This document shows, in pieces, positions 38,340-38,511 of a stretch of DNA of 38,620 nucleotides; the first letter of the stretch is position 1, and each line of letters starts with the position of its first letter. Position numbers and translations under genes: made by a program. The notes beneath the pieces are model-generated. The model did not search any database and was not told the DNA's origin. It was given only the letters and a program-made list of their open reading frames with translations. The stretch comes from Anaerolineaceae bacterium. Lineage in GTDB: Bacteria; Chloroflexota; Anaerolineae; Anaerolineales; Villigracilaceae. The DNA is taken from contig VFKN01000147.1 of assembly GCA_009885525.1 (NCBI GenBank), forward strand, positions 1-38,620, in the 5' to 3' direction.

Positions 38340-38511
38340 TTACGGTGTGCGGGCGCAACGAAAGCCGACAAAGTTATTGGAATTCGTCGGGTCGTACCTG
38401 CTGCGGTTGGCAGAGCGCGTGTCGTTAAAGTAGATGTACCACGAGCCGCCCCGCAACACTCGGCTACCCGAAACACTCAAATCCTCTCTGCCATCATTGA
38501 GATCATAAGGA
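38340..38511 (-). pseudogene. C-terminal fragment of an FGE-sulfatase (SUMF1-like) domain protein, interrupted by an IS1-like element
   Basis: [56 protein letters not shown]; homology stops at the IS boundary. Confidence 0.8.

Follow-up and report, generated by a model that had tools for sequence, protein, structure and literature searches.

In diversity-generating retroelements (DGRs), a reverse transcriptase (RT) acting with Avd copies the RNA of a template repeat (TR) and randomises its adenines; the resulting cDNA takes the place of the variable region (VR). An FGE-fold domain with a C-terminal VR is found in the DGR variable protein TvpA of Treponema denticola, a surface lipoprotein. Remote variable proteins of DGRs are described for cyanobacteria, including all3226 of Nostoc/Anabaena PCC 7120, in which traces of TR-VR homology persist although no RT lies nearby; cyanobacteria also have relic VRs, and transposases occur near the variable proteins (Vallota-Eastman et al. 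2020, PMC7517822). In Thiohalocapsa PB-PSB1, TIR/CLec proteins are DGR targets, transposons degrade DGR parts, and reads show ongoing diversification (Dore et al. 2024, PMC10907252). The same study reports TIR domains, in DGR targets as well as neighbouring genes, as parts of putative conflict systems, and in published practice a trans pair is accepted when all non-adenine sites match (PMC10907252). The types of parts discussed here, i.e., remote variable proteins, relic VRs and transposon damage of DGRs, are already known.

The window (the whole analysed stretch of 38,620 nucleotides) is contig C64 of a Chloroflexota genome assembled in 206 contigs (4.1 Mb, 89% complete). Its right end carries the 3' fragment of a TIR-TM-FGE gene with a VR. 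As in the cyanobacterial remote variable proteins (PMC7517822), this gene has a CLec/FGE-type C-terminal VR away from any RT; unlike them, it belongs to Chloroflexota, its N-terminal part is TIR-TM, and no genomic TR matches the VR. A TIR-linked CLec/FGE target, trans pairing by perfect non-adenine match and transposon damage are shared with Thiohalocapsa PB-PSB1 (PMC10907252), whereas here, in the assembly, an insertion sequence (IS) splits the target gene itself between body and VR. TvpA shares the FGE fold and the position of the VR; the window protein differs from it in being TIR-TM-FGE. It is probable that the locus is a genuine DGR-diversified target which is now orphaned, broken by an IS1-family element and most likely retired.

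Anatomy of the fragment and the IS1-family insertion

The features at the end of the window are as follows.

38340..38511, minus strand: 3' fragment of the TIR-TM-FGE gene, C-terminal ~57 codons including the stop, with one copy of the 8-bp target duplication
38342-38340, minus strand: stop codon of this reading
38349..38366, minus strand: conserved 3' VR flank GFRCAR, kept in the TR ends of relatives
38367..38438, minus strand: VR core of 24 codons; differences from relatives cluster at template-adenine columns
38439..38453, minus strand: conserved 5' VR flank RGGSW, CGGGGCGGCTCGTGG, identical in the TRs of contig C195 and of relatives
38504..38511, minus strand: target-site duplication TCCTTATG, 8 bp, perfect; a second copy closes the flank on contig C31
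38512..38620, plus strand: left end of the IS1-family element and start of insA, terminus GGTAGTGGGCTTTTCC, then MVVFHCPECDSTNVVKNGKN; runs off the contig

An FGE C-terminus with codons like those of a DGR VR had been reported in the earlier note. The codons are as described there, RGGSW, the variable block and GFR could be placed, and the fragment by itself matches Pfam FGE-sulfatase (E 2.5e-6, 29.5 bits, profile 204-255). The VR lies at the 3' end of the FGE-fold gene, in its last 38 residues, as in remote targets. The GFRCAR flank probably corresponds to the initiation-of-mutagenic-homing end of DGRs. The fourth variable codon is TTT and keeps the unusual wobble T that the TRs have in AAT.

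The gene stops at 38511 because the IS1 left terminus begins at 38512. The earlier note had the same end coordinate, 38511, the last base before this terminus, and the insertion itself went unnoticed there. The left end matches Pfam Zn_ribbon_InsA (PF03811, E 1e-6). The InsA zinc-ribbon ORF, the inverted termini GGTAGTGG and the 8-bp duplication (8-9 bp in the family) place the element in the IS1 family; this identification covers the element ends, as the internal part and insB are not assembled. The same left end is found at four other sites of the genome (five copies in all). It recurs with 98-100% identity, and the contigs carrying it break 95-151 bases inside the element, which is multi-copy and broke the assembly.

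Contig C31 starts inside an element of this kind, at its other end (GGTAGTGGCTCAAAG...), next to the remainder of the TIR-TM-FGE gene. Its flank of IS1 ends with ...CCCTATCCTTATG, then GGTAGTGGCTC. The last bases of this flank are TCCTTATG, with which the window flank starts; the other four left-end flanks do not fit as partner of the C31 flank (0/4). C31:107-1441 and the window fragment, joined with the empty site in frame, form one ORF of 498 aa, a computed join which no single locus encodes letter for letter. TIR_2 (11-126) and FGE (PF03781, 282-496) are the domains of the joined protein, the latter scoring 177.5 bits with a gathering score of 23.3. Pfam FGE coverage is complementary (5-195 for the C31 part and 204-255 for the window part, of 255), and the junction residues are continuous with the proteins of relatives. 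The full gene combines a TIR domain in the cytosol with a single membrane helix, a linker rich in Pro/Thr and a presumed sensor domain of the FGE (C-type-lectin-like) type. The sequence match to TvpA, a DGR variable protein of solved structure (PDB 2y3c), has E 1.1e-6, and the FGE fold is already clear from the Pfam and PDB matches.

Judged from two contig ends rather than from continuous sequence, the IS1-family element would sit between the C31 and window parts, immediately 5' of the VR. Without it, a single protein can be read across the site, so the target gene is cut between its body and its variable tip. The insertion presumably inactivates the TIR-TM-FGE protein, because C31 alone ends ...PYPYG-stop without RGGSW...GFR. 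In the assembled consensus, the VR appears severed from its own protein by IS1.

Adenine bias of the variable region

Two genomes of the same genus, G055 and G052, possess DGRs with TRs reading RGGSWNNNNNNVRSANRNRNDPTNTNNNIGFRC and close variants. Their own VR-TR pairs differ at adenines only (11/32 A vs 0/70 non-A and 11/31 vs 0/71, respectively). The nearest TR to the window VR is that of the sister species G055, from which it differs at 13/32 A and 9/70 non-A sites, a modest Fisher result (P=0.002). Since TRs of this clade differ from each other at only 2-4 A and 5-13 non-A sites, the window VR diverges at non-A sites as a sister TR would, and its A divergence is in excess. VR-VR comparison needs no cognate TR and is stronger than comparison with a TR. 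G109, of another genus in the family, has a VR that differs from the window VR at 17/27 template-A columns vs 5/67 others (P=5.4e-8), and P ranges from 3e-9 to 3e-3 for 10 further VRs.

The simple A/non-A Fisher test is not specific alone, as unrelated FGE C-termini of this genome give P of about 0.01-0.04; non-A identity and VR-VR comparison were therefore used. The FGE C-termini of contigs C47, C108 and C156 are mildly A-enriched relative to TRs, and the genome is rich in FGE paralogues. Both facts suit an ordinary FGE paralogue without DGR history, in which surface-loop variation and AAY-like codon usage would imitate a VR. This explanation is very unlikely, since non-A identity to TRs amounts to 87% for the window VR vs about 60% for unrelated FGE paralogues, and the differences from the G109 VR are concentrated as given above. 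In addition, the adenine-masked framework pattern (≤2 mismatches) matches only VRs and TRs among 400 genomes of the order (VRs and the G055 TR), and the reversed control pattern gives 0 matches in these genomes.

The codon pattern is more than chance; by its sequence, the window VR is a DGR-type VR and belongs to a related VR lineage. The concentration of substitutions at template adenines holds against related TRs and VRs. The DGR-type VR proposed in the earlier note is borne out by the adenine-column bias against both the G055 TR and the G109 VR. That note would have abandoned the proposal had the genome no DGR RT or template and had the differences been spread over all bases; a DGR RT exists, and the differences concentrate at template-A columns, so by this rule the proposal is not refuted.

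DGRs of the genome and the search for a template

Two RTs with the DGR hallmark LPIGNLTSQ are encoded in the genome, on contigs C195 and C37. The TRs of the genome are AAC-rich.

C195, 3017-6130: complete DGR (L018) with a TIR-TM-FGE target, RT, bAvd (PF22296, E 1e-19) and TR RGGSWNNNNNNTRSSNRNNNTPDNINNNIGFRCAR
C172, VR from about position 4522, plus strand: target (L020), an 890-aa FGE protein on another contig than the C195 DGR
C37, VR about 2275 and TR about 4042 (reverse-strand coordinates), minus strand: DGR (L019) with an FGE target, RT, Avd-like ORF and TR

The C195 VR differs from its own TR at 16/34 A and 0/68 non-A sites, and the C37 VR from its own TR at 12/29 A and 1/73 non-A sites. 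The C172 VR differs from the C195 TR at 17/34 A and 0/68 non-A sites; because of this perfect non-A match, C172 is a likely trans target of the C195 DGR. The N-terminal part of the C172 protein resembles an ATPase by look. On C37, a transposase-like ORF ends at the 5' side of the target gene. Exactly one extra codon compared with the TR, just before GFR, is present in the G055 VR (L048) and the C172 VR (L020), which suggests an occasional 3-bp gain during homing.

The target of the C195 DGR has the same TIR-TM-FGE architecture as the window gene and the same VR framework. Comparison of the window VR with the C195 TR reveals differences at 16/34 A and 19/68 non-A sites, the latter mostly synonymous framework changes; with the C37 TR, 12/29 A and 30/73 non-A sites differ. 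Neither TR is the template of the window VR, because the non-A sites mismatch (0-1 mismatches in true pairs) and the published criterion for a trans pair (PMC10907252) thus fails; the window VR belongs to a different TR lineage than C195. The window VR could also be a target of the C195 (or C37) RT/TR which drifted later, as its 80% match to the C195 TR over 50 nt might suggest. With these numbers of non-A mismatches such a pair is refuted as a current one, and the drift explanation is scarcely credible.

As stated in the earlier note, the window contains neither an RT nor a template, and no DGR-type RT adjoins the target in the window or the C31 stretch. The window VR is remote from any RT, because the DGR RTs of the genome lie on C195 and C37. 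The 'remote target' of that note therefore stands with respect to distance from the RTs; service by a template of this genome is not supported, as the two TRs mismatch and no third was detected in the assembly. The genome search it had advised, for a template beside a DGR RT, yielded the RTs and no matching template. The genome (89% complete) contains no third DGR RT. No third TR was detected there with the nearest foreign TR as query (E up to 10); besides the window VR and both TRs already described, this search returned the C195 and C172 VRs as weak matches and some short hits due to chance.

A cognate TR should match the window VR at the non-A sites of the framework CGxGTGTTGCGGGGCGGCTCGTGG...ACGCGCTCTGCC...CGC...GGCTTTCGTTGCGCCCG. 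The adenine-masked pattern found 54 loci in a scan of the genome collection, mostly chance matches; the others are VRs, at L064, at L108 and in a few FGE C-termini of other phyla, with no cognate TR among them. The masked pattern had no match in viral contigs. The cognate TR was thus not found in the genome (89% complete), the 400-genome sample of the order or the viral contigs. Of a complete DGR cassette, both the adjoining RT and a TR matching all non-A sites are lacking for the window VR.

Possibly orphaned variable regions in the genus

The history of the locus is probably as follows. In mutagenic retrohoming, a DGR RT would have made cDNA from a template repeat, randomising the adenines of its AAY codons, and this cDNA would have taken the place of the last ~75-100 bp of the TIR-TM-FGE gene. 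As no cognate TR turned up, this homing into the gene is inferred. The changed FGE tip would alter the ligand bound, and the TIR domain would signal across the membrane helix. The cognate TR and RT may then have been lost, or they may lie within the unassembled ~10%; the VR would now be frozen. IS1 would have split the gene between its body and its variable tip.

With 89% completeness, the assembly may simply lack the TR and RT, and the VR may still be active. In this case, a third RT/TR in the ~10% unassembled would serve the VR in trans, and the IS1 copy would be polymorphic in the population. The fit of the C172 VR to the C195 TR (0/68 non-A mismatches) shows that such pairing is plausible in this genome, VR/TR repeats and IS copies break assemblies, and Thiohalocapsa PB-PSB1 is reported to show both trans activity and structural variants, disrupted versus intact (PMC10907252). 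However, neither a third DGR RT nor a third TR was found in the assembled genome, and the IS1 break is found in the assembled consensus. Furthermore, many VR-like relatives in the genus have no detectable DGR RT, so loss is favoured over an assembly gap. An active remote target is therefore rather unlikely, and the orphaned, retired target remains the preferred reading.

When 57 genomes of the genus were searched with the C195 RT, 12 proved to have close DGR RTs. VR-like DNA is present in 20 genomes of the genus, and only 6/20 are among the 12 with a close DGR RT. Six near-complete sister genomes carry VRs: G056 (97%, L028), G051 (100%, L030), G029 (96%, L033), G007 (96%, L034), G033 (93%, L038) and G013 (92%, L039). 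These VRs differ from known TRs at 2-9 non-A sites per ~70 and at 16-24 A sites per ~32. No DGR-type RT was detected in these six genomes. In G055, the DGR RT on contig C201 (L158/L198) contains one in-frame TAG, and the surrounding target and TR look intact; the DGR may have died recently, or the TAG may stem from an assembly error.

Because repeats can drop out of metagenome-assembled genomes, the RT-less VRs of the genus are a lead, not a finding. The locus would be a tangible example of a hypermutable TIR-linked sensor put out of use by an IS, in a genome where the same machinery continues to fit two further targets. The part worth following is the genus-wide persistence of RT-less VRs. 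Tentatively, the genus may routinely keep DGR-made receptor tips after loss of the retroelement (six or more sister genomes with completeness above 90%), an idea which is possible and still doubtful. If true, a transient mutator would supply frozen sensor specificities a single time, these would spread and persist alone, and the pool of RT-less VRs in sister species would allow testing the fixation of DGR products after mutator loss.
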